DNA of 64,000 nucleotides from Actinomycetes bacterium (GCA_024641635.1 JAHECS010000003.1:1-64000); one strand, 5' to 3'. Shown: positions 9,596 through 30,948, counted from the stretch's first letter. Notes: generated by a model from the sequence alone, not told the origin. Numbers and translations: made by a program.

Positions 9596-9714
9596 GCGTG
9601 CCCGCCCCTCCTCGTCATGACAGCCGCGATCCTACCTGCCGCCCACGCGGTCGACGTGCGCGGAAATCCGCGGGCTCGTCGGTAGTGTCGGCACCAACCG
9701 ATCGAGGAGGTCGC

Positions 9715-12338: not shown

Positions 12339-14194
12339 GCGCCGCGCCCTTTCATCCGGCGCAAGGGCGCGGTCACCTTCCACGACCGGGTGTTCGTCAT
12401 GAAGTCCATCTCCTGCCGGAGCGCCTCTGCGGCCGCCTTGTGCGCGATCACCTGGGCCTGCAGATCGTCGGCGTGCAGGACGACGAAGGATCTGATGCCG
12501 AGGAACCCTTCGATGGAGTCGTGAGCGTCCACGACGGTGAACGACACCTGCGCCGGCTCTCCTGCCACCCCGTCACCCAGCGGCAGGCTGACCACCGATC
12601 CGAGATAGACGTCCTCGCGCACCGGACCACCGGGGCCGGTGGCCTCGATGGTGGCCACCCCTGGCATCGAACGCGTTGACAGGAGCATAAGAAGCGGGCC
12701 GTCGACAGGCCGGGTGACGCGCACGTCGACGCGGCGGCCGGGCCGGACCTCGTTGCCCCAGGTCTGCGGTGCCCCGAAGGTGCCCACCACAGCGGCGTCG
12801 ACGACCTCGAAGTCACGCTCCCCTCGGGGCTGGCCGAGCATCGGAGTGGTGCCCTCCGACTGAAGATGCGCGTAGTAGCGGTCGGCGTAGCCGCCATCCG
12901 GACCCGGCTGACCGACCGCCAGCATGTACTCGCGCCCGAGCTCGATCGTGGGGATCACGGACGGTCTCGCCTCCTCCTCGTCGGCAGCTCGCACCTCGTC
13001 GAGAAGTGTCGCAGCAACGTCGTGCCAGCTGATGGGTTCGCGCGCATCGGCCGCGATGCGGCCCTCGGCCGTGGTCCGCGCCGCTTCGTCGAGGGCAGAC
13101 TCTTCCAGCACGCGGACGAAGTCGTCGAGGTCGTCACTTGCGAAGTAGGCGGCGAGATCACGGCCGGCCTCAGGAATCGAGGAGTTGCGTGCGGCCACCG
13201 GGAGCCGTCCGAAGGCCAGGCTCTCCGAGACCGGTAGGCCCCATCCCTCGTAGCGAGACGGGTAGACCGTGAAGAGGGCATGGGCGTAGAAGCGGGCAAG
13301 GTCGTGGTCAGAGACGCTGGTGGACAGCACGCTGACCTTGCCGGCAAGGCCCTTCGTGCGCACGTATGCGTCGAGGAACTCGTCGGCGTGCCAGCCCAGG
13401 CGCCCGATGCACACCAGGTCGGGCACGTTCTGCGAACCGTGGCGTTGGACCAGCCGGTCCCAGGCCTGCAGGGCGAGGACGTGGTTCTTGCGGGACTCGA
13501 CCGTTCCCACGAACAGGGCATAGGGGCGAGGCCAAGGATCGTCGCTGGTGTCGAAAGCGCCGGGGGTCAGGCCGCACGGCAGCCCGGTCGCTTGACCGGG
13601 GGGAGCGGTCCAGCCCCGAGCCGAGCAGTAGTCCTCGTAGTCGTGGCGGCTGGATTCGGAGATGGCGGGAACACGCGACCCGGTCTGGGTGATGAGGGTG
13701 AGGTAGCGGTCGAAGAGCTTGTTGACCGCGGCGGTGTGACCTGCCTCCATCACGGGCGTCAGGTCGTACAGGAGGTAGACGCACCTGGCGCCCTGGGCAT
13801 GGACGTCCCTGGCCGCCAGCATCAGCGCGTCATTGATCCAGACCGCTCCGAGGAAGAGCACCGTGCTTCCTTCGCCCACTGAGACATGCTCCGCGGACTT
13901 CGCCCGCACGAGGCAGGCGCCGGCTGCCTCGGCCACCTCCGACCCGCCCACATCCGAGCCGGCGGACGCCCCACGCCGTACAAGCACGTCCGTCTCCGAA
14001 CCGGTCAGTTCGACGAAGACGCCCCGTCGACGGTCGAGGACCACTGCCCTGGCCGACGGATCGGAAGCGAGCAAGAGGGGCACGGTCTCGGCGATGACCC
14101 GTTGGACACCTGAGACCGACTCCTGCCGCTGGAGGAACTCGACGAGGTCGCTGACATCGAGCAGGAGCCGTCCGCCACCGATGATCGCGCCCAC
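12335..14194 (-). CDS. glycosyltransferase family 4 (GT-B), long form
   Basis: PYALFVGTVESRKNH, VYPSRYEGWGLPVSESLAFGRLPVAARNSSIPE. Confidence 0.88.
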   Translation of the reverse strand: MGAIIGGGRLLLDVSDLVEFLQRQESVSGVQRVIAETVPLLLASDPSARAVVLDRRRGVFVELTGSETDVLVRRGASAGSDVGGSEVAEAAGACLVRAKSAEHVSVGEGSTVLFLGAVWINDALMLAARDVHAQGARCVYLLYDLTPVMEAGHTAAVNKLFDRYLTLITQTGSRVPAISESSRHDYEDYCSARGWTAPPGQATGLPCGLTPGAFDTSDDPWPRPYALFVGTVESRKNHVLALQAWDRLVQRHGSQNVPDLVCIGRLGWHADEFLDAYVRTKGLAGKVSVLSTSVSDHDLARFYAHALFTVYPSRYEGWGLPVSESLAFGRLPVAARNSSIPEAGRDLAAYFASDDLDDFVRVLEESALDEAARTTAEGRIAADAREPISWHDVAATLLDEVRAADEEEARPSVIPTIELGREYMLAVGQPGPDGGYADRYYAHLQSEGTTPMLGQPRGERDFEVVDAAVVGTFGAPQTWGNEVRPGRRVDVRVTRPVDGPLLMLLSTRSMPGVATIEATGPGGPVREDVYLGSVVSLPLGDGVAGEPAQVSFTVVDAHDSIEGFLGIRSFVVLHADDLQAQVIAHKAAAEALRQEMDFMTNTRSWKVTAPLRRMKGRGA

Positions 14195-15138: not shown

Positions 15139-16869
15139 GTGACGGGACGACTGCGTCCGGGGACCCAGGCGCAGGCGTGGACCGATGTCCTGATCGTCAC
15201 GTGCATCGGCGCCCTAACGACCTTCCTCTCCGGAGCGCAGCGGTGGACCGGCTTCAACTCGCCGGATTCAGAGTTCTACGCGTCGCTCGCGCTCTTCGGT
15301 GACGACGTCGCGGGTCGCGCCATCGATCCGGCCTACACGACCACGCGCCTGGGCTACATCGCGCCCGTGCGCGTCCTCGTGACGACGCTGGACCCGTGGA
15401 TCGGCTTCGCGATCTGGCGCCTCGTTCTCATCACCCTCATCGTCGGGTCGCTCTACGCCTTGGTGCGGATGGTCAGTACCCGGCAACTGGCTGTGCTCGT
15501 GTCCGCTGCGGGGGCGCTGAACACCGTCGTCCTGAGCTACGTCGGGAACACCTACCTGACCGGGACGGTCATGGCCGGAGTCCTGCTGCTGCTCGCCCTG
15601 GGGGCCTGGCCCGGGCTGGGCTCGCCGTCGCGCGCGTGGCTCCCCGCGTTGCTGTCGGGCGCCACGGCGGCGTGGCTGGTCATGACGAACCCCTATGGGT
15701 TCCTGCTGGGCCTGTCCATGTGGTTCGGACTCAGGACCCTCGTGCTTGTCTCCGCGAAGGATGGTCGCTGGCGAGCCCTGGCTCGCGACACGGTTCTTGC
15801 GGCAGTCGGTTTCGGCGTCGTGTTCAGCGCCTTCCTCCTGGCGGGCCGGGTCATCTTCCCCGGACGGTCGTGGCTCGGGACCTACCTGGACTGGAACGCC
15901 CGACTCGACTACTCGGTCTTCGTTGGCGACCCGGACGTGTGGCAGCGGGACGTCGCGCTGCTCGTGCCCGCCGCCGCCGTCGTCGTAGCCCTCATCGCCC
16001 TCGCCCTGGGGGGCAGCCGCCGAGCAGCCATCGTCGCCGTAGCGGTCGCTGTCCTGAACTGGGTCTTCACGTTCGGCTACCTCTGGCTGGTCCCGGGTCC
16101 GTGGCTGGAAGCACCCACCTACGTCGCCCTGCTGTGGCCCGGAGCCCTGGCGGCCGTCGCCTTGTCATTCGCCTCCATCGTCGGCCGGCGCAGCCTGGGG
16201 CCCGCAGGGTGGATCACCGGTCTTCTGGCGCTGCCCTTCGTGCTCTGGGCGGGTCGGTGGGAGCTCGATCTCACCGGGGTACAGGGGCTGGCCATCGCGC
16301 TTGTCATGCTCGTGCTGGTCGCCGCGGCGGCTCTCCTTGTGCGCCGCAGCGAAAGCCCGAGCGGGCGGGTCACTGCTGTGTCCGTCGTCCTCGCCCTGGC
16401 CGCGATGACCGTTGGGGCCCAGGTGCTCCAGAACGGCCGGGGTCTGCTGGGCATCTACGGGCAGTTCCCGTTCCGGGCCGCCTACGTTGACTTCCAGGCC
16501 GAGCACCTCATGCGCGCAAAGGCGGCAGCCGAGGAGTTCGTGCTGGCGCAGACGGCGCCCGACGACGTGGTCGGGGTGTGGACCGACGCCGATCGCCTGA
16601 CATCGGGAATCGCCGCCATGCAGCTGTGGAGCAACTACAACGCCGTCGGCTATTCGGCGACGTTGACCCCGGAGGAGACCGAGAGGCTGGAGCAGGTCAA
16701 GCCCTCCGCACTTGCGATGTACGCACCCAGCCGCGATCAGATCTATGCGTTCTGGCAGAGCCTCCCAGCCCGGGCCGGTGCGTCGGTGCCGGAGTGCACC
16801 ACAGTGCCCTTCCTCGGCATCGGGTCGCCGGAGGCGCACGTCTGCGTCACCCACCTCGCCTGGCCCTAG
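15139..16869 (+). CDS. polytopic membrane protein (putative GT-C-like)
   Basis: Many predicted TM helices by eye, conserved-looking soluble C-terminus; GTG start. Confidence 0.55.
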   Translation: MTGRLRPGTQAQAWTDVLIVTCIGALTTFLSGAQRWTGFNSPDSEFYASLALFGDDVAGRAIDPAYTTTRLGYIAPVRVLVTTLDPWIGFAIWRLVLITLIVGSLYALVRMVSTRQLAVLVSAAGALNTVVLSYVGNTYLTGTVMAGVLLLLALGAWPGLGSPSRAWLPALLSGATAAWLVMTNPYGFLLGLSMWFGLRTLVLVSAKDGRWRALARDTVLAAVGFGVVFSAFLLAGRVIFPGRSWLGTYLDWNARLDYSVFVGDPDVWQRDVALLVPAAAVVVALIALALGGSRRAAIVAVAVAVLNWVFTFGYLWLVPGPWLEAPTYVALLWPGALAAVALSFASIVGRRSLGPAGWITGLLALPFVLWAGRWELDLTGVQGLAIALVMLVLVAAAALLVRRSESPSGRVTAVSVVLALAAMTVGAQVLQNGRGLLGIYGQFPFRAAYVDFQAEHLMRAKAAAEEFVLAQTAPDDVVGVWTDADRLTSGIAAMQLWSNYNAVGYSATLTPEETERLEQVKPSALAMYAPSRDQIYAFWQSLPARAGASVPECTTVPFLGIGSPEAHVCVTHLAWP

Positions 16870-16950: not shown

Positions 16951-17787
16951 TCAGAGCAGGGTGCGCAGGAGGCGCGGGATGGCCAGTTCTGGCGCTGTGT
17001 TCGACGTCGCAACGGATGTCAGGCTGCGCACCTCGCCCAGCCTGCCCACGGTTCGCGGCAACCGCGCGACTCCGGCGGCCAGGCGACCGGCCGTCGAACG
17101 CGCCTGATCCCCAGGGTCCAGACCGACCTCCTGGCCTGCCGAGACCCGGTAGTCGATGACGATCTCGTCGTCGACCCGCAACTCCTCACGAGCGACGGCA
17201 ACGAGACTCCACCAGCGGTCATGAAGCCAACCGGATGGGATCTCGACGTCCGCGAAGGCCGCGGGACGGACGGCACTGGCCCCACCAGTGGCCACGGAGT
17301 GCCGCAGGACGGTGCGCATGCGCTCAGCCGGCGAGGCCATCGACCACACCACGGGCGTGGGGAAGGCGGAACGAAGCGTCCCCTCGATCGGCAGGCCATC
17401 CGCGCCGACCAGCCGCCCATTCGACGCGAGCATGGTGTCCTGCTGCCACAGCTCAAGGACGCCGACCTGGTGCCCGATCCGATTCGGATGCCAGATGTCA
17501 TCGTGGTCGCCGAGCACGGCAACGTCGCAGTCCCGGACCTGCTGAAGGCCCAGCCGGAAGTTGTGCGCGATCCTCGTGGCGCGATCTGGTGTTGCCGCAG
17601 TTGACGGGACGACACGCACTCGATCGCCAAGCGCCCTCATCACCAGCTCAACGGTGCGATCAGTAGAGCCGTCATCGACGACCACGACATCGTCGGGTCG
17701 TCGCGACTGGGCGAGCACGCTCGCCAGCGTCGCCTCGATCCAGCGTTCGGAGTTGCTCGTGACCAGGACGACGGCCACTCGAGTCAT
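16951..17787 (-). CDS. glycosyltransferase family 2
   Basis: MTRVAVVLVTSNSERWIEATLASVLAQSRRPDDVVVVDDGSTDRT; ATGA overlap with upstream gene. Confidence 0.9.
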   Translation of the reverse strand: MTRVAVVLVTSNSERWIEATLASVLAQSRRPDDVVVVDDGSTDRTVELVMRALGDRVRVVPSTAATPDRATRIAHNFRLGLQQVRDCDVAVLGDHDDIWHPNRIGHQVGVLELWQQDTMLASNGRLVGADGLPIEGTLRSAFPTPVVWSMASPAERMRTVLRHSVATGGASAVRPAAFADVEIPSGWLHDRWWSLVAVAREELRVDDEIVIDYRVSAGQEVGLDPGDQARSTAGRLAAGVARLPRTVGRLGEVRSLTSVATSNTAPELAIPRLLRTLL

Positions 17788-18914
17788 CGCCGTCGCCTTT
17801 GTGCATCGAGGCGTCGGATGAGCTTCTCGTAGTCGTCCGTCACCGCGTCCCACTGGTACGCGTCGAGCACGCGCTGTCGTCCGAGCGCTCGTAGTTCATC
17901 GAGACGAGCGGTCTCCGATCCCGACGCGATCGCGTTGAAGAGGTCTTCGAGCGCATCGGCATCTGCCCAGAAGTAGGCGGCTCCTGCGGTCACCTCCCGA
18001 TTGAACTCCACGTCATACGCCAGCACGGCCGCACCGGCCCCCATGGCGCGAAGCAGCGACGGATTCGTCCCGCCTACCGAGTGCCCGTGAATGTAGGTGG
18101 TCGCGTTGGCGTACAGCTGGTCGAGGAGCGCCTGGTCGTAGATCCCTCCGGTGAAACGGATGCGCGGGTCGGCCTTGGCGGCGGCATGCACCTTCTCCAC
18201 GTACCAGTCTGAGTAGGGCGCGCTGCCGACCACGACCAGCGGCTGGGTCTGGGCGCTGACTCGATACGCGTGAACGGCGTCGAGCACGTGGTTCTCGGGC
18301 TCGAATCGGGCCACGATCAGGTGGTACGCGCGGCTTTCGAGGCCTAGTTCGGGCAGCCGGTCACTACCGGGCTCGATGACTTCGGCCCCGTAGGGGATGA
18401 CCACGCAGTCACGCCCGTACTGGGCGCGCACGTGGTCGGCGATGGCCTGGGCGTCGGCGATCACCTCCGTCCCCCACTTCACGGCGGCCCTCTCTGCCCA
18501 GCGGTAGTACTTCGCCCCCGCACCGCGCCACTTCTCCCGTTTCGACTCAAGGCCGTCGAGGTGGATGGCCGTCGGAATCCCTGCCAGCGCAAGCGGCTTC
18601 AGGAGGGGAGCGTTACCGGCGTTGAGCAGCAGCACGACGTCCGGACGATCCGCGACGATCGCGTGAGCGGTGCTCAGGGCCGTGTGCGAGAGGGTCTCGG
18701 TCATCCGGTGCCTCAGCGCAGGCACGTTGACAAGATGCATTCCCTCGTAGGAGGTGATGTGCTGACCGGGGTTGCGGCAGTAGACGGTGACCTCGTAGCC
18801 GCGCGCGACGAGTCGCCGGCCGATCTCCTCCACCGCCGTCTCGAAGCCCCCGTAGAGCGCGGGGACTCCCCGCGTGCCCATCAGGGTGACCTTCACGTGG
18901 CTCACCGTACCCAT
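17784..18914 (-). CDS. glycosyltransferase (DUF1972/GT4, rhamnosyltransferase-like)
   Basis: VTLMGTRGVPALYGGFETAVEEIGRRL and YIHGHSVGGTNPSLLRAMGAGAAVLAYDVEFNREV. Confidence 0.9.
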   Translation of the reverse strand: MGTVSHVKVTLMGTRGVPALYGGFETAVEEIGRRLVARGYEVTVYCRNPGQHITSYEGMHLVNVPALRHRMTETLSHTALSTAHAIVADRPDVVLLLNAGNAPLLKPLALAGIPTAIHLDGLESKREKWRGAGAKYYRWAERAAVKWGTEVIADAQAIADHVRAQYGRDCVVIPYGAEVIEPGSDRLPELGLESRAYHLIVARFEPENHVLDAVHAYRVSAQTQPLVVVGSAPYSDWYVEKVHAAAKADPRIRFTGGIYDQALLDQLYANATTYIHGHSVGGTNPSLLRAMGAGAAVLAYDVEFNREVTAGAAYFWADADALEDLFNAIASGSETARLDELRALGRQRVLDAYQWDAVTDDYEKLIRRLDAQRRRR

Positions 18915-18937: not shown

Positions 18938-19540
18938 GTGGAGGTGACAGCGCGCGGCATCGACGGCGTCTGGGAGTTCACCCCCGTCCTCCGACCCGAT
19001 GACCGAGGCGTATTCCTCGAGTCCTTCAAGGCGTCGTCCTTCGAGGAGGCTGTCGGCCACGCCCTTGACCTCCAGCAGATGAACATCTCGGTGTCGAAGG
19101 CCGGCACCGTGCGCGGCGTGCACTTCGCCGACGTGCCTCCCGGGCAGGCCAAGTACGTGCAGTGCTTCCACGGACGCATCCTCGACGTCGTCGTCGACAT
19201 CCGCGTCGGGTCGCCCACCTTCGGCCAGTGGGATGCCATCGAGCTCACCGCAGACCTTCGCAACGGGCTGTACATCGCCGAGGGACTCGGCCATGCGTTC
19301 TGCGCCCTCACCGATTCCGCGACGGTCGGCTACCTGTGCTCGGAGCCGTTCGCCCCGGCCCGGGAGCACGGCATCACCCCGGTCGACCCGGCACTGGGCC
19401 TGCCGTGGCCGGACATGGAACTGCTCCTGTCGCCCAAGGACATCGCCGCTCCGACCCTGGCCGAAGCGGTCGAGCAATGCCTGCTTCCGCAGTACGACGA
19501 GTGCACGGACTTCATCGCGGAGCTCCGCTCCGTTCGTTGA
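18938..19540 (+). CDS. rfbC: dTDP-4-dehydrorhamnose 3,5-epimerase family protein
   Basis: DDRGVFLESFKASSFEE...QMNISVSKAGTVRGVHF...YVQCFHGRILDVVVDIRVGSPTFGQW...EGLGHAFCAL. Confidence 0.92.
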   Translation: MEVTARGIDGVWEFTPVLRPDDRGVFLESFKASSFEEAVGHALDLQQMNISVSKAGTVRGVHFADVPPGQAKYVQCFHGRILDVVVDIRVGSPTFGQWDAIELTADLRNGLYIAEGLGHAFCALTDSATVGYLCSEPFAPAREHGITPVDPALGLPWPDMELLLSPKDIAAPTLAEAVEQCLLPQYDECTDFIAELRSVR

Positions 19541-19598
19541 GTGCGGAGTTGTTGGGGCCTCAGCGCGTGAGAAACCCCCAACAAGTCAGCACTCAACG
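19535..19598. terminator. long intergenic hairpin (hairpin family member 1)
   Basis: cgttgagtgcggagttgttgggg / ccccaacaagtcagcactcaacg: 23-nt arms with 2 mismatches, between convergent genes. Confidence 0.75.
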
Positions 19599-19603
19599 GT
19601 CTG

Positions 19604-21922
19604 TTAGGGCAGGGGGGTGCCGACGCCCAGGCTGATCCCGGGGTACGCCGTCCGGTCCACCGTCATCCGCAGCTTCTCCTTCACCGCACCGGCCCACCAG
19701 GCCAGTGCCATCTGCTGCAGTGCGTACTCCTCCTTGCCGAGCCGGTAGGACTCCTCGGTCGGGCCATCGGCGTACATGTGGCCGTCCTTCCAGCGCAGCT
19801 GGAGGGCACGCGCGTCACGGGCGTGGGCGGCCAGGAAATCGCCTGCGTTGGTGTCGGGTGCCGCGTAGGCGCTGGCGAATCCGTCGACGCCCACGAACGT
19901 GGCCGGCCTGCGCACTCCCCAGCTCACTCCCATCGGGTAGTAGATCTGGCCGCCCGGCTGGTAGACCGTGCCTCCGGGAGCGGCGTAGGGCGGCGCCGGA
20001 TACTCCACCACGGACAGCGCCCGATAGACGATGTCGGCGTTCATGAAGAGCGCCTCGGGCACCGGCTGGCCACCGGAACGCAGGAGGCTGGCCGCCCACC
20101 ACAGGTGCTGCACGTTCTGGATGTAGTCGGGGTTGACGATGCCGTGGTTGGTGACCGTGCCGTCCTCGTTCGCGTTCGTGCCGGGCAGGCGGATGTCCGG
20201 TCGGACGCCGTTGAACTCCTGCGCGTTGTGCAGATCACCCGGGCGAGCGAACGCCGCGATGGACATGCCGATGAGCGAGTCGCGCCACTTCGGGGCACTG
20301 GGATGTCCGGGCATCATCGCCAGGCCGAGGGCGGGGGCCAGCAGGTCCCATGACACGGTGTCGGACTGCGTGTTCCCGGGAGTGATCTCCTGGCCCAGTC
20401 GGTTCCGGTAGTACTGAGGGCCCCGAGCCGACGCGTATTCGGCCTCACTGACGACCATGGCGGCCACGAGGGCGCGCTCGTTGTCCGTGAGCTTCGGCCA
20501 CAGCATCCACGCCGCCTGCCCCACGGTGACCGCCCACAGTGCCGACTGCCAGGTGTTCCCCCAGCCACCGGGAGTCACGGCGCCGTGCTGGCAGGCCAGC
20601 GAGCGGATGTGCCACCGCGCATAGTCCAGAAGCTCGGACCGCGTGATCCCGTTGATCTTCTTCCAGCGTGACGTCGTCAGGGCGATGGCCGCCGCGAGTG
20701 AGGAGTTGGCCGAGCGGCGCACGGATTCCTCGATCGTGCCGTGGGTGCTGAGCGGGTCGTAGAACGCCAAACTCGTGCGCGAGGCGAGCCGGTCGGTGAG
20801 GTCGTTCGTCACGACGTAGCGCAGGCCGTCCTGCACCGTGCCGAGGATCTCCTGGCTGCCGTCGACGGTCCGCCTGCCCTGCGGGGTGCGAGGCTTGCTC
20901 ACCAGGGCCGCCATCGCCTTGCCGTACTTCTCGCCGTCGCGGGTGGCCGTTGGGCAGTGGCCGTCCGCCGTGCGTTGGGTGCCGACGAGGGCGACCTCGT
21001 CCACCATCAGTGGATGGACCTGCTTCCTCGTCGGACGCAGGCCGTCCAGCCCGCGGCTCAGCACCCACGTCGTGCGGTCCTGCACGACGCCCGGTTCGTC
21101 ACGGCCGTCACGATCCCAGTCCCCGACCACGGGCAGGTCGCCGAAGGAGCCGAAGCCGAACTCGAGCACCGCCGTGCCGGCTGAACGGTTGCGCGTGACG
21201 GAAATGGACCCGTCGAGACGTGGGATCTTCCCCTGGACGTTCGTCAGGCGCAGGAACCAAACCCCCTGACGTACGACGCCGATGTCGTCCCGGTTGTCGC
21301 CGTCCCAGTCGCCCACCACGGGGATATCTCCAGGGCGGCCGAAGTTCTCCGGTGCGGACGGCTTGCCGTTAGCGCGCTGCCAGAGCCACTGGCCGTCGCG
21401 GAACACGCCGATGTCGGCCAGCTTGTCCTTGTCGTAGCGACCCACGACGGGGATGTCCCGCGGGTCCCCGCCGAAGGTTCCGTGCGGCTCCCAGGTGGGT
21501 GAGTTCGCCGCCGCGTTGGTGATGAACCACTGGCCGGCGTCGTAGCGACCGGGGGTGGCGACACCGTCGCCGTTCCAGTCGCCGAGCAGGGGGGTGCCGG
21601 CGGCCGGCGGCATCGAGACCTGCTGGCCGGCGCGCCGACCTGACCCCTCATCCCAGACCGTCCACACGCCGCGCGCCGCGGACGCAGCCGCCGGCACGCC
21701 CAGGGGGGTCACCTTGCCCGTCGGCCACGCGGAGGGAACATCGGGGAGCGCCGGCAGTGCGGGAGCCCGGGCCACGCGGGGCTGCCCATCCGGGCCGAGC
21801 AGCGGGCTCGCGGGGGCCGCCGCCTGACCAGGAACTGCGGTCAGCAGCGTCGTGGCCACGACCGCGACTGCCGTCACCATTGCCGTCAGGCCGTACCGAT
21901 CGACTCCCGTCACGGGGCGCAT
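19604..21922 (-). CDS. secreted FG-GAP/VCBS-repeat protein with large C-terminal domain of unknown function
   Basis: Signal-like N-terminus; four repeats (GDWNGDGVATPGRY, GRYDKDKLADIGVF, GDWDGDNRDDIGVV, GDWDRDGRDEPGVV); remainder mostly helical by eye. Confidence 0.75.
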   Translation of the reverse strand: MRPVTGVDRYGLTAMVTAVAVVATTLLTAVPGQAAAPASPLLGPDGQPRVARAPALPALPDVPSAWPTGKVTPLGVPAAASAARGVWTVWDEGSGRRAGQQVSMPPAAGTPLLGDWNGDGVATPGRYDAGQWFITNAAANSPTWEPHGTFGGDPRDIPVVGRYDKDKLADIGVFRDGQWLWQRANGKPSAPENFGRPGDIPVVGDWDGDNRDDIGVVRQGVWFLRLTNVQGKIPRLDGSISVTRNRSAGTAVLEFGFGSFGDLPVVGDWDRDGRDEPGVVQDRTTWVLSRGLDGLRPTRKQVHPLMVDEVALVGTQRTADGHCPTATRDGEKYGKAMAALVSKPRTPQGRRTVDGSQEILGTVQDGLRYVVTNDLTDRLASRTSLAFYDPLSTHGTIEESVRRSANSSLAAAIALTTSRWKKINGITRSELLDYARWHIRSLACQHGAVTPGGWGNTWQSALWAVTVGQAAWMLWPKLTDNERALVAAMVVSEAEYASARGPQYYRNRLGQEITPGNTQSDTVSWDLLAPALGLAMMPGHPSAPKWRDSLIGMSIAAFARPGDLHNAQEFNGVRPDIRLPGTNANEDGTVTNHGIVNPDYIQNVQHLWWAASLLRSGGQPVPEALFMNADIVYRALSVVEYPAPPYAAPGGTVYQPGGQIYYPMGVSWGVRRPATFVGVDGFASAYAAPDTNAGDFLAAHARDARALQLRWKDGHMYADGPTEESYRLGKEEYALQQMALAWWAGAVKEKLRMTVDRTAYPGISLGVGTPLP

Positions 21923-23871
21923 TCAGGGCACAGGTCGTTGGGCGGCATCGGGACTTGGACGGGGAGGACGCGGTCATCGTTCCGGCTGACCGCATAGGCC
22001 TCGAGGAGCTCGCCGGACGTGGGCCTGAACCACAATGCCGCCAGCGTCATGTCCGGGTTCACCTGGAGGGAGACATCGACGTAGCCGAGGGCCTTCGAGT
22101 CGTAGGGGAAGGCGGGCAGGCCCCGGTAGAACCGCTGCTCCGTCTTCGACAGCACCCCATGAAGGGACATCACCCAGAGGTTCGGCAGCGTCCCCGCGCC
22201 GTCCCACAGGAGCGTGGCGCGGTCCGGGTACGGCTGCGCGGCCTGCTGCCCGCGGATGATGGCCTCGCCGACCAGCGAGTCCTCGATCCCGCGGGTCCGA
22301 TCGGCTCCGGCCTGTACTCCGGGTGCGGCGTTCACACCCGGTGACAACGACGTCAGCACGCCGACGTAGCCGAAGAGCCCCACCACGATCACGCCGGCCG
22401 TGGCGACAGCCAGGGTCGCCGTCGCCCGAGACATGCCGTCGAGCGCCCGCGTCACGACGATGGCCACCAGGGCCGCGACCACCGGCGCCACCGCCAGCAG
22501 CATGGCGTCGAGGGGCTTGAGGACGTAGTACGCCTGGAGTCGGCTCAACCCTGCGGTGTCGACGCCGCTCACGAAGACGAGTGCGACGATGCCCGGTCCG
22601 GCGATCGGTCCCGCAATGGCCACGGCCAGCGGCCACCGGCCGGAGCGGACCAGGATGACGGCGAGGAGCGCCGCGATCAGCGGGGCCGCCAGCGCCATCC
22701 CGACGTTGAACGGCACCATGCCGGTCCCGACCGCACCGAGATCCGAGGTGAGGTCTCCGCTGGTCTGGCCCGGCTCGACGCCGAGGATCGCGGACGTCTG
22801 CGTCACCGCGAGGATTGATCCGGCGACCGCCGCCGCGACGAGCCAGGTCGCCCCGACCCACCAGCGGTGCTTCACCAGGGCGATCGCCACGACGACCCCG
22901 GACGGGACGAGTCCGAGCACGAGCGGCGTCCACAGGCCGATGACGGCGATCGCCGCCAGCGGGACGAGGAACCAGCCCAGGACCCGGGCGGACCGCAGGC
23001 TTCGGGCCCCTAGGTAGGCGGCGACCACCACGACGGTGACGCCCATCATGAAGTTCGTGAAGCCCGCGTTGTAGAGGTAGGCGGGACTGCCCAGCAGCGC
23101 GAAGAGGGCGAAGGCCGCCACGGCGAGGGGACGCGTCCAGCGCTCACGCCCACGGCCGCCGATCCGGGCGGCCACGTCCCCGGCGACCCATGCGAGCGCC
23201 ACAAGGCAGGCTGCGAACGACAGGGCGTTCCACTGGACATAGGGCCACAGAAGTCCTGGCCGGTCGAGCAAGGGGGACACCGGGCGGAACGCAAGCTCGA
23301 GCAGGGACCACAGTGTCGTGTGGAGGGACGGGTACCACTGGTTCCAGGCGATGGAGCCGTCGATGGTCGGCCACGTCGTGCTCGCGGCCTCGTACGTGTT
23401 GGCGAACGTCGTGTAGTGCGCGTGGTTGTCCCAACCGCTGAAGAACAGGCCGCTGACGATCTCCGTCGTCGACCGCCCGACGTAGGCGGCCATGAGCCAC
23501 GCGGCGCTGGCCACGCCCAGGGCGGCCACGATCGCGTCGCTGAGGGTCGCTCGGGGGATCCGCACATCGCGCAGACGGGGCACCAGTCGCAACGCCAGGA
23601 GGCCGATGAGCAGCACGCTCAGGGCGACGCGCGAGCTCGCGACGGTCACCGGCATGCTCCCGGCGCGGGGGAAGGCCAGCGCCACCAAGCCGAGCACGAC
23701 GAGGCCTGACACAACGGCCCGCTCGGTCAGGCTGGATCCCCACGGCGGCAGCAGCACGAGCATCACGCCGACGGCAACGAGGCCGACCGGAGGGACGAGC
23801 CACAGGGCGAGGATCGTCGCCGCCGTGGCCACGCCGAGTGCTCCGACATAGCGGGCGGTCGTCCCGCTCAT
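21910..23871 (-). CDS. polytopic membrane protein, polysaccharide-locus type
   Basis: About a dozen hydrophobic stretches; start reassigned to MSGTTARYVGALG at 23871 (ATGA overlap). Confidence 0.7.
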   Translation of the reverse strand: MSGTTARYVGALGVATAATILALWLVPPVGLVAVGVMLVLLPPWGSSLTERAVVSGLVVLGLVALAFPRAGSMPVTVASSRVALSVLLIGLLALRLVPRLRDVRIPRATLSDAIVAALGVASAAWLMAAYVGRSTTEIVSGLFFSGWDNHAHYTTFANTYEAASTTWPTIDGSIAWNQWYPSLHTTLWSLLELAFRPVSPLLDRPGLLWPYVQWNALSFAACLVALAWVAGDVAARIGGRGRERWTRPLAVAAFALFALLGSPAYLYNAGFTNFMMGVTVVVVAAYLGARSLRSARVLGWFLVPLAAIAVIGLWTPLVLGLVPSGVVVAIALVKHRWWVGATWLVAAAVAGSILAVTQTSAILGVEPGQTSGDLTSDLGAVGTGMVPFNVGMALAAPLIAALLAVILVRSGRWPLAVAIAGPIAGPGIVALVFVSGVDTAGLSRLQAYYVLKPLDAMLLAVAPVVAALVAIVVTRALDGMSRATATLAVATAGVIVVGLFGYVGVLTSLSPGVNAAPGVQAGADRTRGIEDSLVGEAIIRGQQAAQPYPDRATLLWDGAGTLPNLWVMSLHGVLSKTEQRFYRGLPAFPYDSKALGYVDVSLQVNPDMTLAALWFRPTSGELLEAYAVSRNDDRVLPVQVPMPPNDLCPECAP

Positions 23872-25799
23872 CGCCGGAACCCGATGGTCACGCCGACGGG
23901 GGCGTTCTGCACAGCGCTCACCGTCGCGGTCGAGCCGTTCACCTGCTGGCCGTCCTGCGGAAGCGGAGTCCAGCCGGGCGGCCCGGATACCTGAACCGTC
24001 AGCGTCGACGGGGACCACAGGGACTGCGGCTCGGCCTGCAGGAGGTAGGTGAGCCTGCCGGTGGCACCGTCTCCGAACGTGCCGGCCGGCAGGTCATAGG
24101 TGACGGAGACGGCGTTCTGACCGCCCGGAGCGGTCCAGCCCACGATCCGGATCATCCGATGCCCGAAGCCGTCATCGACCCATCCTCGCCCGAGCTGGGG
24201 ATGGTTCTTGAACGGCCGAACGGCGTAGCCCGTGGGATACGACGCTCGGTAGTTCCTGGCGGCGTCCGGCACGTACATGATGTACGCGGCCTTCAGCCAG
24301 GAGGTCTCGTAGCCGACACGCTCGGGCGGGCCCTCGGGACGGTCGGGCGGAGTCCCGTTGGTGACCGTCATCTGCTGGGACACCCGTGCTGATCCGTCCT
24401 CGGCCACCTGGGCGGTGACGAGCACGTTCCGCTGCTGGAAGACGTCGACCTTGCTCTGGTTGCCGTTCTGCGTGTACATCGCCGACCAGTCACCGACGTC
24501 GGGGTCCGACACCACACCGGCCGCGCCCGCCTCCAGCGACAGGCGCTCGAGCTCGGGACTGCGCATCCACACCTGGAAGTGCCGCCCCGGGGCGGTGCTC
24601 GCGATGGCCCGGGCGGCCGAGACCAGGTCGTCCCCCGACAGCAGTCGGGTCAGCAGTCCGTCGAGCAGCTCCTGGTTGGCCTGCTGCCGTTCCGTCGCGC
24701 CCTCCTGGCCGAACTCCTGGTAGGCATCGATGAGCAGGATCTGCCCGAGCCGGGCTCCGTCGACAGTGCCGTACGCCGGTGATTCCACCGGGCCGGTCGA
24801 GTCCAGCACCGAGGCGACGGCGGTCAGGTCCATCGTGATGACGCCGTCCACCGGCGGGTAGTTGCCGCCCACCCAGGCCTCAGCCATCTCCCGGGCGGAG
24901 AACAGGAGGTTCGGGTGCGTGTTGGTGACCACGAACGGCGCCGTGCGCGGATTGCCGGGGAAGAACGGGTTGGCTGCCGGGCCCCACCACGTGACCGGTG
25001 CGTTGAGCGGCGGGAAGAGCTGGGTGCTGGTCGGCCCCTTGATCGGTATGGAGATCCGACCCTCGTTGAACTCGACGAGCACGAGGGTCAGCGGGGCTCC
25101 CCCGGAAGCCCGCATCTCAGCCTGGTTGCCGATCGCGATGAGGTAGCGGCGCACGCCATTGGCCCCGAGGGCATCGGGCAGGACCGGAGCTATCCCCTCG
25201 AGGGACGCCACCGCCTGCTGCACCGTCTCCATCTCCTCGAGGGCCTTGTCCCGGATGCGGTCGAGCGGACGCGACGGCGCCGTCTCGGCGCGGATGGCCA
25301 CCAGGGCCGACTCGGCCGCGTCCAGCTGACCGCTGGCCATGGACACCCGGCTGGGCAGGTCCTCGAGCCGGGCCAGGTCGATGGCCCCGTCGCTGAAGAT
25401 CTTCGGACCGCCGCCCTGGCCGGACAGGTCGCCGTACAGCGAGAGGAGGCTCCCGGTCGCGTCCGTGATGTCCCCCGCCGCCGAGACCACCTCGCGCCAG
25501 TTCGCGATGGCGACATCGACCCCCGCCACGTGCTCGAGCAGATCGAGGGGCATGACGTCGACCGAGCGGACCAGTTGCTGCGTTGAGGCCTGCGCGGCCT
25601 CGTACTCCTCCTGCGCCGCCGCGTACTCGCCTGCCTGCAGTCCGTCGGCCGCCGCGGTGAGGTGGCTCTGCAGTCCGAAGCCGCCGTAGCCCAGACTCGC
25701 CACCGCGTAGAGCAGGCCGATCTGCATCCAGACGACGAAACCGCCCACCACGAGGATGAGAAGGCCGCCCAGCACGAGGCGTGGGCGGCTCACAGTCAC
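23868..25799 (-). CDS. DUF4012 domain-containing protein
   Basis: N-terminal TM; YLIAIGNQAEMRASGGAPLTLVLVEFNEGRISI...FPGNPRTAPFVVTNTHPNLLFSAREMAEAW...GVITMDLTAVASVLDSTGPV, DUF4012-like. Confidence 0.85.
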   Translation of the reverse strand: MTVSRPRLVLGGLLILVVGGFVVWMQIGLLYAVASLGYGGFGLQSHLTAAADGLQAGEYAAAQEEYEAAQASTQQLVRSVDVMPLDLLEHVAGVDVAIANWREVVSAAGDITDATGSLLSLYGDLSGQGGGPKIFSDGAIDLARLEDLPSRVSMASGQLDAAESALVAIRAETAPSRPLDRIRDKALEEMETVQQAVASLEGIAPVLPDALGANGVRRYLIAIGNQAEMRASGGAPLTLVLVEFNEGRISIPIKGPTSTQLFPPLNAPVTWWGPAANPFFPGNPRTAPFVVTNTHPNLLFSAREMAEAWVGGNYPPVDGVITMDLTAVASVLDSTGPVESPAYGTVDGARLGQILLIDAYQEFGQEGATERQQANQELLDGLLTRLLSGDDLVSAARAIASTAPGRHFQVWMRSPELERLSLEAGAAGVVSDPDVGDWSAMYTQNGNQSKVDVFQQRNVLVTAQVAEDGSARVSQQMTVTNGTPPDRPEGPPERVGYETSWLKAAYIMYVPDAARNYRASYPTGYAVRPFKNHPQLGRGWVDDGFGHRMIRIVGWTAPGGQNAVSVTYDLPAGTFGDGATGRLTYLLQAEPQSLWSPSTLTVQVSGPPGWTPLPQDGQQVNGSTATVSAVQNAPVGVTIGFRR

Positions 25800-25838
25800 C
25801 TAGCGAGTATAGGTTCGGCGCCCTCCCCTACCTCGTAC

Positions 25839-25882
25839 CGCCGAGTGGTCACTGCGCGCATGCGCGCAGTGACCACTCGGCG
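25839..25882. terminator. 44-bp perfect palindrome (hairpin family member 2)
   Basis: cgccgagtggtcactgcgcgca|tgcgcgcagtgaccactcggcg, directly 3' of minus-strand stop at 25901. Confidence 0.8.
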
Positions 25883-25900
25883 AGGAGGGGGAGGGTACGG

Positions 25901-27421
25901 CTAGTAGGCGCCGTCGCCCATGAGGACGGCCTTGACGGTCTTGGCCACGATCACCAGGTCCAGCGCAGGAGACCAGTTCTCCACATAGTCCAGGTCCAGG
26001 CGCATGCGCTCGTCCCAGTCGACGTCCTTGCGCCCGGACACCTGCCACAGTCCGGTGAGTCCCGGCTTGGTGAGGTGCCTGCGATGGTCGGCGTCGCCCA
26101 GCAGGGGCATCTCCTCGACCAGGACGGGTCGGGGGCCGACGAGGGACATGCTGCCGGAGATGACCGCCACGACCTGCGGCATCTCGTCGATCGACCACCT
26201 GCGGAGGACCCGGCCGACGGGGGTGATCCGGGGGTCCCCCTTGTAACGATCGAGGATGGCGGCGTCCGGGGCACCGATGACCTGCTCGCGCGCGGCGTCC
26301 GCTCCGACGTACATCGTCCGGATCTTGGCGACCCTGATGATCTGGCCACCGCGACCCACGCGCTGCTGGAAGTACAGGACCGGGCCTCTGCTGGTGAGCT
26401 TGACGGCGGCCGCGGCCACCAGCATGAACGGCAGGAACACCAGGAACAGGAGCGACCCGATGACGATGTCGAGGGTTCGCTTGATCGCCCGCTTGGGTCC
26501 GGTGAGGTGCGGCTCGTCGAGGTGGAGCAGCGGGAGGTCGGCGGCCATCCGCATGGTCACCCGCGGGCCGGCGATGTCGCCTACCGTCGGCGCGACGAGC
26601 AGGTCGATACGAGGGCCCTCGAGTCGCCAGGCAAGTCGCTGGACGACGGAATGCCCCAACGCTTGCGATCCGGCGACGGCAACGGTGTCGGCGTCCTCGA
26701 GCGTGATGCGCGTCATGACCTCGTCGAGCCAGTGATCGAGCCCCTCCTCGGACACATCGGCTGGGGGTTCGTCGATCACATCGACGACGGTGAACCCGGC
26801 AACCGGATCGCGGTCGAGCATGTCGACGATCTCGGACATCGACGGGCCGCCGCCGATCACGGCCGTCCGGTGGAGGAAGTGGCCGTAGCGACGCTCGTGC
26901 CTGAGCCACGCTCTCAGCGCCCATCGCACGACGAGGAGGAGGACGAAGCCGACGGCGAAGGTGATGAGCACGAAGCCGCGCGACAGGTCCAGCTTCAGCC
27001 CGAAGGCCATGATCGCGATGGCGCCGAAGACCACGGCCGTCGCACCGACGACTCGCTTGAACTCCTCGGAGCCGACGCCGAGGATCCGGGTGTCATAGGC
27101 GCCACGGAGGACCAGCACGACCATCCACGCCACGACGATGATGACGACGAAGGAGAGGTACGCGGGATCGTTGATCTCCACGGAGTAGGGGATCGACCAG
27201 CGGAGGATGAATCCGGTCACGCCAGCCACGACGATGACGAGCAGGTCCAGCATGAACGCCCGGGTCGCGTACACCCGAAGAGGGTCGCGTCGCAGGTGCG
27301 GGCGGTCGCGATGCGAATGGATCTCCGCCCAGCCGATGCGGGACGGCATGCGCAGGGGGATGGTGTGATGCTCGCCCTGGTGCGCGGCGTCAGCGGAGGG
27401 TTTGCCCTCGTCCAGCGACAC
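25901..27421 (-). CDS. exopolysaccharide polyprenyl-phosphate sugar phosphotransferase (polytopic phosphoglycosyl transferase)
   Basis: C-terminal KRTLDIVIGSLLFLVFLPFMLVAAAAVKLTSRGPVLYFQQRVGRGG...RWSIDEMPQVVAVISGSMSLVGPRP...KPGLTGLWQVSGR. Confidence 0.95.
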   Translation of the reverse strand: MSLDEGKPSADAAHQGEHHTIPLRMPSRIGWAEIHSHRDRPHLRRDPLRVYATRAFMLDLLVIVVAGVTGFILRWSIPYSVEINDPAYLSFVVIIVVAWMVVLVLRGAYDTRILGVGSEEFKRVVGATAVVFGAIAIMAFGLKLDLSRGFVLITFAVGFVLLLVVRWALRAWLRHERRYGHFLHRTAVIGGGPSMSEIVDMLDRDPVAGFTVVDVIDEPPADVSEEGLDHWLDEVMTRITLEDADTVAVAGSQALGHSVVQRLAWRLEGPRIDLLVAPTVGDIAGPRVTMRMAADLPLLHLDEPHLTGPKRAIKRTLDIVIGSLLFLVFLPFMLVAAAAVKLTSRGPVLYFQQRVGRGGQIIRVAKIRTMYVGADAAREQVIGAPDAAILDRYKGDPRITPVGRVLRRWSIDEMPQVVAVISGSMSLVGPRPVLVEEMPLLGDADHRRHLTKPGLTGLWQVSGRKDVDWDERMRLDLDYVENWSPALDLVIVAKTVKAVLMGDGAY

Positions 27422-27523
27422 GCGTCACCTCCCGGTGCTCGACCAGCCCACCCACGGTAGCAGCGCCCTCGCCAGGCACCGTGCTCGTGAGGGCCGCTTT
27501 GTCCGGATCTTTACCCCGGTTCC

Positions 27524-27585
27524 GCGAGTGGTCACTGCGCGCACGGGGGCGCGCAGCGCCACCGATGCGCGCAGTGACCACTCGC
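27524..27585. terminator. long intergenic hairpin (hairpin family member 3)
   Basis: gcgagtggtcactgcgcgca - 22 nt - tgcgcgcagtgaccactcgc: 20-bp perfect arms, directly 3' of minus-strand stop at 27593. Confidence 0.8.
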
Positions 27586-27592
27586 CGGGGGG

Positions 27593-28954
27593 CTACTGGA
27601 AGTAGAAGCGGACGGGGACGTCCGTGAGGGTGACCGGCGCCCCGGACTCGACCTCCTGGCAGTTCGCCAGGGGGTCGCAGACCAGGCGGGCCCCTTCAGG
27701 CACCGTGTAGGCGGTCTCGCCCTTCTCGGACCAGGCCACGATCCAGGGCGTGCCTGCCTTGGAGAAGTTGCACGCGACCGCGCCCGAGTCCTCGGCGGTG
27801 CAGCCGTCGAACGACGCCCCCACCACCCAGTTGTCGAGGGCGAAGAACCCCTGCTCGGCATCCGAGCCGGGGAAGGCCTGGATCCCTCGGACGACGCCGG
27901 TGTTGCCGCCCTCCTTCTGTGTCCAGATGTACCAGTAGGACCGGTCGACCCCGTAGCGCAGATCGTCGATGTAGGTGCGGACGATGAAGCCGGCGGCCTT
28001 CGCCCCCGTGATCTCCTGGCCCGCGATGTCGCCGGGGCCGGCGAGGCCGTAGTTGAGCTCGGTGTCCCACAGCGGCAGGTCGGGGGCGCCAGCGGCGGTG
28101 AGGTAGTCCTGAACCTTGGTGATCGCCACGCCCCGGGCGATCGGGTCGCCGTCACCGGCCGGGTACGTGTGCACCGCGACGACGTCCACCGGCCAGTCCT
28201 TCGCGGCCAGCGCCGTGAGGTAGGCCGGGAAGAACTTGTCGAATGCCGCCGTGAGTCGGGTTGTCGGCGAGGCCGACACCACGAGCGCGTCGGGATCGAT
28301 CGCCTTGATGATGTCGTAGGCGCGCTTGGTCAGCTCGGCCATCTCCTCCGGCGTCCCGTTCCAGAAGTTCTTCAGGTTCGCCTCGTTCCAGATCTGGTAC
28401 GCCGCGATCCGTCCCTTGTAGCGGGTGGCCACCTCGGTCACCCAGGAGTCCCAGGCGTCGAGATCCTTGGGCGCGCTCGCGGCACCCGGCTGGGGGTAGT
28501 CGGTGTCGGTGACCTTCTTGGCGTTCCACTCCGGCGTGGTGCCCAGCACCATGAGCACGTCCGACATGCCCTTCGACTGGGCGTTCTCGAGGGCACCCTC
28601 GAGGTTGTCCCACTTGTAGACGCCCGGCTCGAGCTCGATCTGCGACCACGCCGTGCCGTTGTCCCACAGCCGCAGGGCCCCGAACGGCGCGGATGCCCAG
28701 TTGCCGGCCTCCTCGCCCTCGATGTGCATGCCCACGAGGGAGGCGGGCACTCCGCCGGCCTCCGGCGCCGACGACCCCGAGGGGGCGGCCGAGGCGCTCG
28801 GCGTCGAATCGGAGCTGCCCGACGAGCATCCTGCCGCGAGCAGGGTGACCGCCGCCGCGACAGCCGTGAAGGCTACGAGGCCGGAGGCGCGGCGGGATCC
28901 ACCGGCGCGGCGGGATCGACCGGCGGGGCCGGCACTGCGGGCGTTCCGAACCAT
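27593..28954 (-). CDS. secreted/lipoprotein-like glycoside hydrolase (TIM-barrel, GH39/GH5-like)
   Basis: Hydrophobic N-terminus with LLAAGCSSGSS lipobox; RLWDNGTAWSQIE, YQIWNEANLKNFWNG, PLWDTELNYG; paralog of next gene. Start MVRNARSAG at 28954 is inferred. Confidence 0.8.
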   Translation of the reverse strand: MVRNARSAGPAGRSRRAGGSRRASGLVAFTAVAAAVTLLAAGCSSGSSDSTPSASAAPSGSSAPEAGGVPASLVGMHIEGEEAGNWASAPFGALRLWDNGTAWSQIELEPGVYKWDNLEGALENAQSKGMSDVLMVLGTTPEWNAKKVTDTDYPQPGAASAPKDLDAWDSWVTEVATRYKGRIAAYQIWNEANLKNFWNGTPEEMAELTKRAYDIIKAIDPDALVVSASPTTRLTAAFDKFFPAYLTALAAKDWPVDVVAVHTYPAGDGDPIARGVAITKVQDYLTAAGAPDLPLWDTELNYGLAGPGDIAGQEITGAKAAGFIVRTYIDDLRYGVDRSYWYIWTQKEGGNTGVVRGIQAFPGSDAEQGFFALDNWVVGASFDGCTAEDSGAVACNFSKAGTPWIVAWSEKGETAYTVPEGARLVCDPLANCQEVESGAPVTLTDVPVRFYFQ

Positions 28955-30165
28955 TGCGGGGTTCCAATCGTGACTTGCGACCCCGGGATCACCGGCGTGC
29001 ACTGATTGAGCGCGTTGCAGGTGATGGTCGCATTCGCGGGCACCGTAAAGGTACCTGAGCCCGACGAGGCCCACGCGACCACCTTCGGCGTGACGTTGTC
29101 ACCGAGGTTGCAGACGTTGACCGCGCCGGCCTGGCAGTCGAAGAAGGCGCCGCTCAGCCAGTTGCGGACGGTCTCATATCCCACAGCTCCCCCGGTGCCC
29201 GAGTACATCTGGATCCCGACGAGGCTGGAGTTGTTGTACCAGTAGTACCAGTACGCGCGCCCGACCCCGTAGAGCATGTCGTCGAGGTACGTCTGGGCCA
29301 CCCAGGCCGCCGACGTGCCCGAGTCGAGCACGCGACGCGGATTGTTCTTCTGCGGCCCGGCGATGCCGTAGTTGATCTCGGTGTCCCACAGTCCCATGCG
29401 GGCAGGAACCTTGGCCTTCTTCATGTCCTTCTGCGCCTGCTTGATGAAGGCGACACGGTCCGCCGGGGTGCCGTTGGCGGCCGGGTAGAGGTGGACCGAC
29501 ACGACGTCGATCGGCCACTTGAGCTTCTTGAGCTCCTTGAGGTAGGCGGGGAAGAACTTCTTGTAGGCGCTCTGCAGCCGCATCGTCGTGCTCGCCGCCA
29601 CGACCTTCGCCGACGGGTCGTACTTTCGGATGATCTTGTACGCCTCCTTGGTCAGCTGCGCCATCTGCTTCGGCGTGCCCTGCCAGAAGGTCGTGAGGTT
29701 GGCCTCGTTCCAGATCTGGTAGGCGTCGATGGACGCGCCGTAGCGCTTCACGATCGCCGTCACCCAGCTCTTCCAGTCCTTCATGCTCTTGGGCATCGAG
29801 GCCGCGCCCTTGTTGGGGTAGGTGCCCTGCTTGGCGTTCTTCGCTGCCCACTTCGGCGTCGAGCCGAGCACGTACAGGCTGCGGAGGTTCTGGGCGTTCG
29901 CGTTGGCGATCGCGGCGTCGAGGCCGTTCCACCAGTACTTGCCGTTCTTCTGCTCGACCTGGCCCCAGGTGACCCCGGAGTCCCACAGGCGGATCGCCCC
30001 GTCGTTGACGGTCGTGGTCTCGCCCTGCGAGATCTGCGGGACATGCATGCCGAACGCCAGATCGTCGATCGGGCCGCCGGTCACCGCCTGAGCGGGTGCA
30101 GAGGTCAGCAGTCCGCCGACGGCGAGGGCCGTGGCGAGGGCGGTGGCCATGAGGGTGCGGCGCAT
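28873..30165 (-). CDS. secreted glycoside hydrolase (paralog of 27593..28954)
   Basis: Signal peptide MRRTLMATALATALAVGGLLTSAPAQA; RLWDSGVTWGQVEQ, YQIWNEANLTTFWQG, GLWDTEINYGIAGP. Confidence 0.82.
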   Translation of the reverse strand: MRRTLMATALATALAVGGLLTSAPAQAVTGGPIDDLAFGMHVPQISQGETTTVNDGAIRLWDSGVTWGQVEQKNGKYWWNGLDAAIANANAQNLRSLYVLGSTPKWAAKNAKQGTYPNKGAASMPKSMKDWKSWVTAIVKRYGASIDAYQIWNEANLTTFWQGTPKQMAQLTKEAYKIIRKYDPSAKVVAASTTMRLQSAYKKFFPAYLKELKKLKWPIDVVSVHLYPAANGTPADRVAFIKQAQKDMKKAKVPARMGLWDTEINYGIAGPQKNNPRRVLDSGTSAAWVAQTYLDDMLYGVGRAYWYYWYNNSSLVGIQMYSGTGGAVGYETVRNWLSGAFFDCQAGAVNVCNLGDNVTPKVVAWASSGSGTFTVPANATITCNALNQCTPVIPGSQVTIGTPQWFGTPAVPAPPVDPAAPVDPAAPPAS

Positions 30166-30252: not shown

Positions 30253-30948
30253 CTAGCGCTTCCTCAGCACGTACAGGCTCTGGCCGTCCGTTTCGCGGCC
30301 GTACTCGAACCGGTCAACCGCCAGACGGGCAGCGTTCACGTGATCCTCGAAGTGCCAGCGGGCGAACCGGGTGCAGTGCAGGCGCCCCTTCCACTCCAGT
30401 GGGCCGTACCCCTCCGGGTTCTCCTCCCAGCCGGGCACATCCTCCTCGACGAAGCAGGTGACGAACGCCCGTCCCTCCGGGGCCAACGCCTCACCGATGA
30501 GCTGCAGGTACGCGGGGGTGTCCTCGTCGTTCATGTGCGAGAAGACCGAGTACGCGTAGAACACGTCGACACTGCCGGGCTCGGCGGACAGCGTCCGCTC
30601 GGGGGTGCCGTCAGGGTTGTAGCGCTCGTTGCTGACGTCGACGCACGTGAACCGGAAGCCCGGCCCTGCGAGGTTCTCCTCCGCCCATTCGACGAGCTCA
30701 GGCTGGACGTCGACCCCGTGGTAGTCGGCGATCCGGCCGAAGTGCTCGCGGACGCCGACGGCGAGGCGGCCGGCCCCGCATCCCCAGTCGAGCAGCCTCG
30801 AATCCGTGCCGAGCGCGCAGTACCGCTCCAGGCGCTTGACGTCGCGGACCGCCGTCTTGACGAACGCCGCGTCGTTCTTGAAGTGCTTGCCGCCCATGCG
30901 GTACTTGCTCGGCGGGAGCGCGCCGTCCTGCGTCTTCTTCGAGAACAT
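30253..30948 (-). CDS. class I SAM-dependent methyltransferase
   Basis: RLLDWGCGAGRLAVGV motif I, DVFYAYSVFSHM. Confidence 0.85.
   Translation of the reverse strand: MFSKKTQDGALPPSKYRMGGKHFKNDAAFVKTAVRDVKRLERYCALGTDSRLLDWGCGAGRLAVGVREHFGRIADYHGVDVQPELVEWAEENLAGPGFRFTCVDVSNERYNPDGTPERTLSAEPGSVDVFYAYSVFSHMNDEDTPAYLQLIGEALAPEGRAFVTCFVEEDVPGWEENPEGYGPLEWKGRLHCTRFARWHFEDHVNAARLAVDRFEYGRETDGQSLYVLRKR

Follow-up and report, generated by a model that had tools for sequence, protein, structure and literature searches.

Exopolysaccharide systems of Gram-negative bacteria carry built-in trimming enzymes, among them AlgL and PslG. In Pseudomonas, AlgL, a PL5 enzyme with an (alpha/alpha)5 toroid fold encoded in the alginate operon, clears mislocalised polymer during alginate synthesis (PMC8829089). 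PslG, a membrane-associated, GH39-related endoglycosidase encoded in the Psl operon, has a hydrolase activity which contributes to Psl production (PMC6813494). The alpha/alpha toroid has also been recognised as a rare fold of phage depolymerases (11/984; PMC11326577). For Bifidobacterium longum 105-A, an EPS cluster was described in which a priming glycosyltransferase is located directly beside a DUF4012 gene, followed by wzz; the part of that description considered here shows neither a toroid protein nor a GH39 pair (PMC5412050).

The locus described here is part of an ABC-exported, dTDP-sugar/GDP-fucose polysaccharide cluster, which is conserved in freshwater actinobacteria. As in B. longum, its priming enzyme is encoded directly beside a DUF4012 protein, while AlgL and PslG would be the nearest functional parallels for the trimming scheme proposed below. 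Clusters of this kind are already known; the new element is an uncharacterised, widespread family of toroid domains. If a similar arrangement operates in these freshwater actinobacteria, which are abundant and uncultured, the trimming principle would be extended to a Gram-positive ABC-dependent pathway.

Composition and conservation of the cluster

The window, i.e., the whole stretch of DNA that was analysed, comprises 64,000 nt from an Actinomycetes bacterium (GCA_024641635.1 JAHECS010000003.1:1-64000). The genes for a Wzm-type permease and a Wzt-type ATPase with a Wzt_C domain are present together with those for a priming phosphoglycosyl transferase (PGT) and glycosyltransferases, as is characteristic of ABC-dependent polysaccharide clusters (Table 1). 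A reading of the sequence alone had proposed an undescribed system of polymer export, attachment or trimming at this locus. A new export system was rejected as unneeded, since the cluster itself encodes Wzm/Wzt, an ABC transporter of the ordinary type.

Table 1. Features of the cluster, in the coordinates of the window
Feature	Position	Strand	Basis and remarks
SAM-dependent methyltransferase (MT)	30253..30948	-	Methyltransf_25 E 9e-13; first gene of the conserved run; syntenic in relatives
GHa, secreted GH39-like glycosidase	28873..30165	-	PF01229 E 3e-8; PDB matches; motifs
GHb, lipoprotein paralogue of GHa	27593..29074	-	PF01229; 45% identity; motifs
PGT, polyprenyl-phosphate phosphoglycosyl transferase, priming enzyme	25901..27421	-	PF02397 E 3e-58, TIGR03025, WbaP structures
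DUF4012 protein	23868..25799	-	PF13196; AF2 model
Polytopic membrane protein, putative GT-C-like protein distantly related to DUF6541	21910..23871	-	hhalign, motifs, conserved start ATG 23871
Secreted FG-GAP protein, predicted C-terminal (alpha/alpha) toroid domain ~325-760	19604..21922	-	Pfam, AF2, Foldseek
RfbC-type dTDP-4-dehydrorhamnose 3,5-epimerase	18938..19540	+	PF00908 E 4e-57
GT4/DUF1972 glycosyltransferase, syntenic	17784..18914	-	profile match, neighbourhoods
GT2 glycosyltransferase, syntenic	16951..17853	-	profile match, neighbourhoods
Polytopic membrane protein, syntenic	15139..16869	+	no Pfam match
GT4 glycosyltransferase, syntenic	12335..14194	-	profile match, neighbourhoods
Wzm-type ABC polysaccharide exporter permease	8798..9595	-	PF01061 E 1e-25
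Wzt-type ATPase with Wzt_C domain	7578..8897	-	ABC_tran + PF14524
GMD / fucose synthase (GDP-fucose-type)	192-1196 / 33225-34169		names from reading translations, not profile search
Inverted pair of 18-nt REP-like repeat	27526..27583	.	between GHb and PGT
Palindrome of same 18-nt REP-like repeat	25843..25878	.	between PGT and DUF4012

Transcription on the minus strand proceeds from the methyltransferase gene through GHa, GHb, PGT, DUF4012 and the membrane protein to the FG-GAP protein. The last six of these genes had been called from the sequence alone, and all were found where they had been placed, on this strand and with coding-type GC3. Both overlaps on which a translational coupling of the last three genes had been based also exist: 4 bp at 23868-23871 (ATGA), with the membrane-protein ATG at 23871 lying over the DUF4012 stop, and 13 bp at 21910-21922 between the FG-GAP and membrane-protein genes. 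The PGT and the glycosidase pair had been described as lying beside these three genes; they are indeed close, but co-directional and upstream, in one run with them. The proposed module of glycan assembly and remodelling is supported, but is larger than had been claimed, the conserved unit extending over ~5.8-31 kb.

In the neighbourhoods compared, the syntenic run was identified as MT-GHa-GHb-PGT-DUF4012-membrane protein-FG-GAP-RfbC (opposite strand)-GT4-GT2-GT4-(Big-domain gene)-Wzm-Wzt. Its order is kept in many genera (at least 8) of one freshwater family represented by Nanopelagicales MAGs, at 38-75% identity, so that co-conservation reaches far beyond close relatives. Among the records of named relatives, MAGs of Candidatus Nanopelagicales and of other actinobacteria predominate; those titled Bifidobacterium breve and Rubrivirga look mislabelled and were left out as evidence. 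The Big-domain gene (9499-10977, opposite strand) adjoins wzm and codes for a secreted protein with a Big_3_5 Ig-like domain, possibly a surface protein of the same polysaccharide cluster. The polytopic protein at 15139-16869 is likewise syntenic in the family and is possibly another GT-C-type enzyme.

Of 148 genomes in the order, 41 encode the FG-GAP protein, and almost all of these belong to the one family. Among the sampled family genomes, 35 contain both the FG-GAP and the membrane protein, 3 the former alone and 5 the latter alone, while at least 20 contain neither (Fisher 5e-9, for draft, mutually related genomes in which "neither" is a lower bound). The unit of DUF4012, membrane-protein and FG-GAP genes is not fixed: in one genus (g8), the run is kept without the FG-GAP gene in its slot (L263) and the gene is found on another contig, and the three genes lose their linkage outside the family. 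DUF4012 proteins are common in the class (138/297 genomes). In three further families of the same order (L252, L253, L254), a GHa-like gene is the direct neighbour of a DUF4012 relative of 35% identity. Because of this recurrence, the combination of DUF4012 and a GH39-like enzyme probably came first, the other two genes being lineage additions. A linkage of PGT and DUF4012 is not universal: when 20 loci from across the class were searched with the PGT of the window, 4 to 5 of them had a PGT at a distance of up to ~8 kb from DUF4012.

Priming enzyme, GH39-like pair and membrane proteins

The identification of the PGT was borne out by profile searches. The protein consists of Bac_transf and CoA_binding_3 domains and matches TIGR03025 (EPS_sugtrans, E 1e-116) as well as the WbaP structures (E 2e-47).

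The two glycosidase-like paralogues that had been noted next to it are GH39-like, share 45% identity and both score above the PF01229 cut-off. In comparison to the PDB, both proteins match GH39 xylosidases and PslG by sequence (for GHa, E 6e-9 and E 2e-6, respectively). GHa carries a Sec signal and is secreted, while GHb has a lipobox (LAAGC) and is a lipoprotein, a parallel to the membrane association of PslG. The true start of GHb probably lies downstream of 29074. Both proteins contain the two glutamates of clan GH-A, in WNEA and DTE[IL]NYG, and by these motifs the candidate catalytic residues are Glu154 (WNEA) and Glu263 (DTEINYG) in GHa and Glu231 and Glu339 in GHb. The spacing of ~108-109 residues may be compared with E165/E276 of PslG (PMC6813494). 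In contrast to the Psl operon, two tandem paralogues are present here, and host and polymer differ.

For the membrane protein, no match to Pfam was obtained even at E 10. Its start is the ATG at 23871, which is conserved, whereas the N-terminal extension given by a longer GTG open reading frame, reaching to 24018, is not conserved in the relatives. An hhalign comparison to DUF6541 (PF20176) gave E 8e-4, with a co-linear alignment over the D..H motif of the first loop and the YP..H motif; in the membrane protein these are conserved as GWDN..H and WNQWYPSLH. The D-N..H loop and YP..H motifs are thus the same in both, although the Pfam model itself is not reached. Judged from these motifs, the protein appears to be a distant, GT-C-like relative of DUF6541 and may act as a GT-C glycosyltransferase. 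The GT-C label derives from the resemblance of DUF6541 to GT-C proteins.

The DUF4012 assignment was confirmed by PF13196 (E 4e-21, residues 214-360, 76 bits against a cut-off of 28). In the AF2 model (pLDDT 68.5), an N-terminal TM helix is followed by a helical part, an alpha/beta core (214-425) and a C-terminal beta-sandwich. It has to be considered whether this protein is an LCP-like transferase which ligates the exported glycan to peptidoglycan, so that the module would serve wall anchoring. The alpha/beta core can be aligned co-linearly with that of LCP proteins, over a segment VDGVITxD..A..L...GPV and the helix after it, and the B. longum EPS cluster, in the part of its description considered here, has DUF4012 between a priming glycosyltransferase and wzz (PMC5412050). 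However, the hhalign P value was 0.015-0.13 with 3 of 60 shuffled profiles scoring higher, Pfam and PDB profile searches identified no LCP protein and left PF03816 unmatched, and the top Foldseek matches of the model cover only the beta-sandwich. An LCP-like function is regarded as possible but less likely than not; it would be a compatible extension of a cluster which assembles and trims its polymer.

The toroid domain and a proposed trimming scheme

The FG-GAP protein carries a signal peptide and, within residues 114-290, about four FG-GAP repeats, of which Pfam recognises one stretch (FG-GAP_3). Its C-terminal part had been described as belonging to no recognised family, and no match was found in Pfam, NCBIfam or the PDB sequences. 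An AF2 model built from 42 sequences predicts an all-helical barrel (pLDDT 91.3, pTM 0.91), and together with its Foldseek neighbours (probability 0.9-0.99, E 0.003 or worse, TM 0.3-0.45) this indicates an (alpha/alpha) toroid fold. The best PDB neighbours are mostly carbohydrate enzymes: PL17, PL8 (xanthan, chondroitin and hyaluronate lyases), beta-glucuronate dehydratase, dermatan sulfate epimerase, GH88, GH154 and GH76. No PDB match fell below E 0.001. The predicted fold, of lyase/GH type and outside the known families, makes the earlier suggestion of a polysaccharide lyase a good guess. The attachment factor suggested alongside it has only the FG-GAP repeats in its favour.

In the divergent homologues spanning these positions, His446, Gln459, Glu493, Tyr504, Asn583, Asn592, His593 and Tyr600 (protein numbering) are conserved, although His593 and Tyr600 have one exception each. 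A segment of the form N-x8-N-H-x6-Y is reminiscent of the DGSxxQH motif of PL8. With the PL8 lyases for xanthan, hyaluronate and chondroitin AC, the domain has in common the predicted toroid fold and a resembling DG[ST]..[NQ]H....Y motif. In contrast, the profile comparison by hhalign was not significant (P 0.67), the position of the catalytic Asn of PL8 is not conserved by eye, and the PL8 beta-sandwich domains are absent. Because of the profile result, membership in PL8 is not supported and the domain was not filed there. AlgL is also an extracytoplasmic enzyme with a toroid fold, and its gene is part of an operon for polysaccharide biosynthesis, but the actinobacterial protein, a putative enzyme, shows no sequence match to it and carries FG-GAP repeats. 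On present evidence it would be a parallel to AlgL in its working and not a member of the PL5 family.

Homologues of the toroid domain were identified in other actinobacterial families, some fused to NPCBM-associated domains, and also in degradative contexts. In Paenibacillus whitsoniae, the homologue is fused to a 3-keto-disaccharide-hydrolase/lectin-like domain and adjoins a solute-binding protein and two permeases of an ABC sugar importer. The homologue on a Halocatena marina plasmid (L269:7052-8860) lies among sulfatases, a gene of the oligogalacturonate lyase family and an endo-xylanase, and one further homologue adjoins GH116. In families such as f14 and f34, the immediate neighbours of the FG-GAP gene are not obviously glycan genes; like the vacant slot in genus g8, this speaks against the trimming scheme proposed below.

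A homologue in a plasmid-borne prophage of Klebsiella (L270:5954-7906; pairwise E 9e-18) follows directly after a tail-tip gene. Its first ~115 residues are an anchor common to many phage tail proteins. Since the matches of these other tail proteins stop there, the toroid-homologous domain occupies the modular position of a tail-spike, which is the usual site of capsule depolymerases. The protein may be a capsule depolymerase of rare fold, and this occurrence predicts a surface polysaccharide as the target of the toroid. Phage depolymerases with this fold use a tail anchor, while the FG-GAP protein is secreted and carries FG-GAP repeats. A tail-spike with a toroid-homologous C-terminal part and the shared N-terminal ~115 residues was recorded for the prophage protein and the viral contigs L271-L273. 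A viral structure library gave nothing useful. A tblastn search of phage GenBank records with the toroid gave no match, and none was found by the actinobacterial toroid profile in viral contigs; the phage homologue was reached by way of the prophage alone.

The Paenibacillus sugar-transport, archaeal degradation and Klebsiella tail-spike contexts point to a polysaccharide-cleaving domain, which may trim the polymer of its own cluster. The FG-GAP protein might instead be a non-enzymatic lectin or adhesin, with toroid and repeats only binding the polymer and keeping it on the cell. This would agree with the occurrence of FG-GAP repeats in adhesive proteins and with the weak fold match of the toroid, but bacterial, archaeal and phage homologues alike retain polar residues of catalytic type, and homologues are found in degradative contexts and in a tail-spike slot, where cleavage and not binding is usual. 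We consider a purely binding role improbable. Even more doubtful is a nutritional role, in which the GH pair and the toroid would degrade foreign, for example algal, polysaccharide as chance neighbours of an export cluster. The hosts are freshwater plankton and the Paenibacillus and Halocatena loci are of degradation type, as such a role would have it; in the family, however, these enzymes are encoded among PGT, DUF4012 and glycosyltransferase genes whose order is fixed, and no importer was seen in the syntenic run.

We are evenly divided on the more specific proposal that the FG-GAP C-terminus founds an undescribed family of toroid polysaccharide-cleaving domains, which occurs in actinobacterial glycan clusters, Paenibacillus, haloarchaeal loci and a Klebsiella tail-spike and which here trims a self-made polymer together with the PslG-like pair. 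For a new CAZy family, these toroid domains provide a concrete candidate.

For the locus as a whole, a glycan assembly and maturation cluster with built-in trimming enzymes appears reasonably probable, in the full sequence from PGT over glycosyltransferases and Wzm/Wzt to modification outside and cleavage. The PGT would load the first sugar phosphate onto undecaprenyl phosphate, and the cytoplasmic GT2 and GT4 enzymes would extend the chain with dTDP- and GDP-deoxysugars before it is flipped out by Wzm/Wzt. Outside, the DUF6541-like membrane protein may add or branch sugars from a lipid-linked donor, and the membrane-anchored DUF4012 protein may hold or transfer the chain. The secreted GHa, the lipoprotein GHb and the FG-GAP/toroid protein would then cut the polymer in order to control its length, clear it or release it; in this scheme the toroid would be catalytic and its substrate the cluster's own polymer.

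A dispersed repeat in the gaps of the operon

The palindrome between PGT and DUF4012 had been considered as an operon-specific signal, which was rejected because it is made of a dispersed 18-nt repeat (GAGTGGTCACTGCGCGCA). In the genome, 47 exact copies were identified, or 67 with up to 2 mismatches, while the pattern read backwards gave 0. The copies are arranged in inverted pairs or as short tandems, in many cases immediately behind a gene, and the repeat looks like a REP-type element. All four copies in the window are located in gaps of the operon, occupying both larger gaps, and the core was present in 0 of 348 other loci. As RNA, the palindrome is predicted to form a hairpin of -68.8 kcal/mol (z -8.7).
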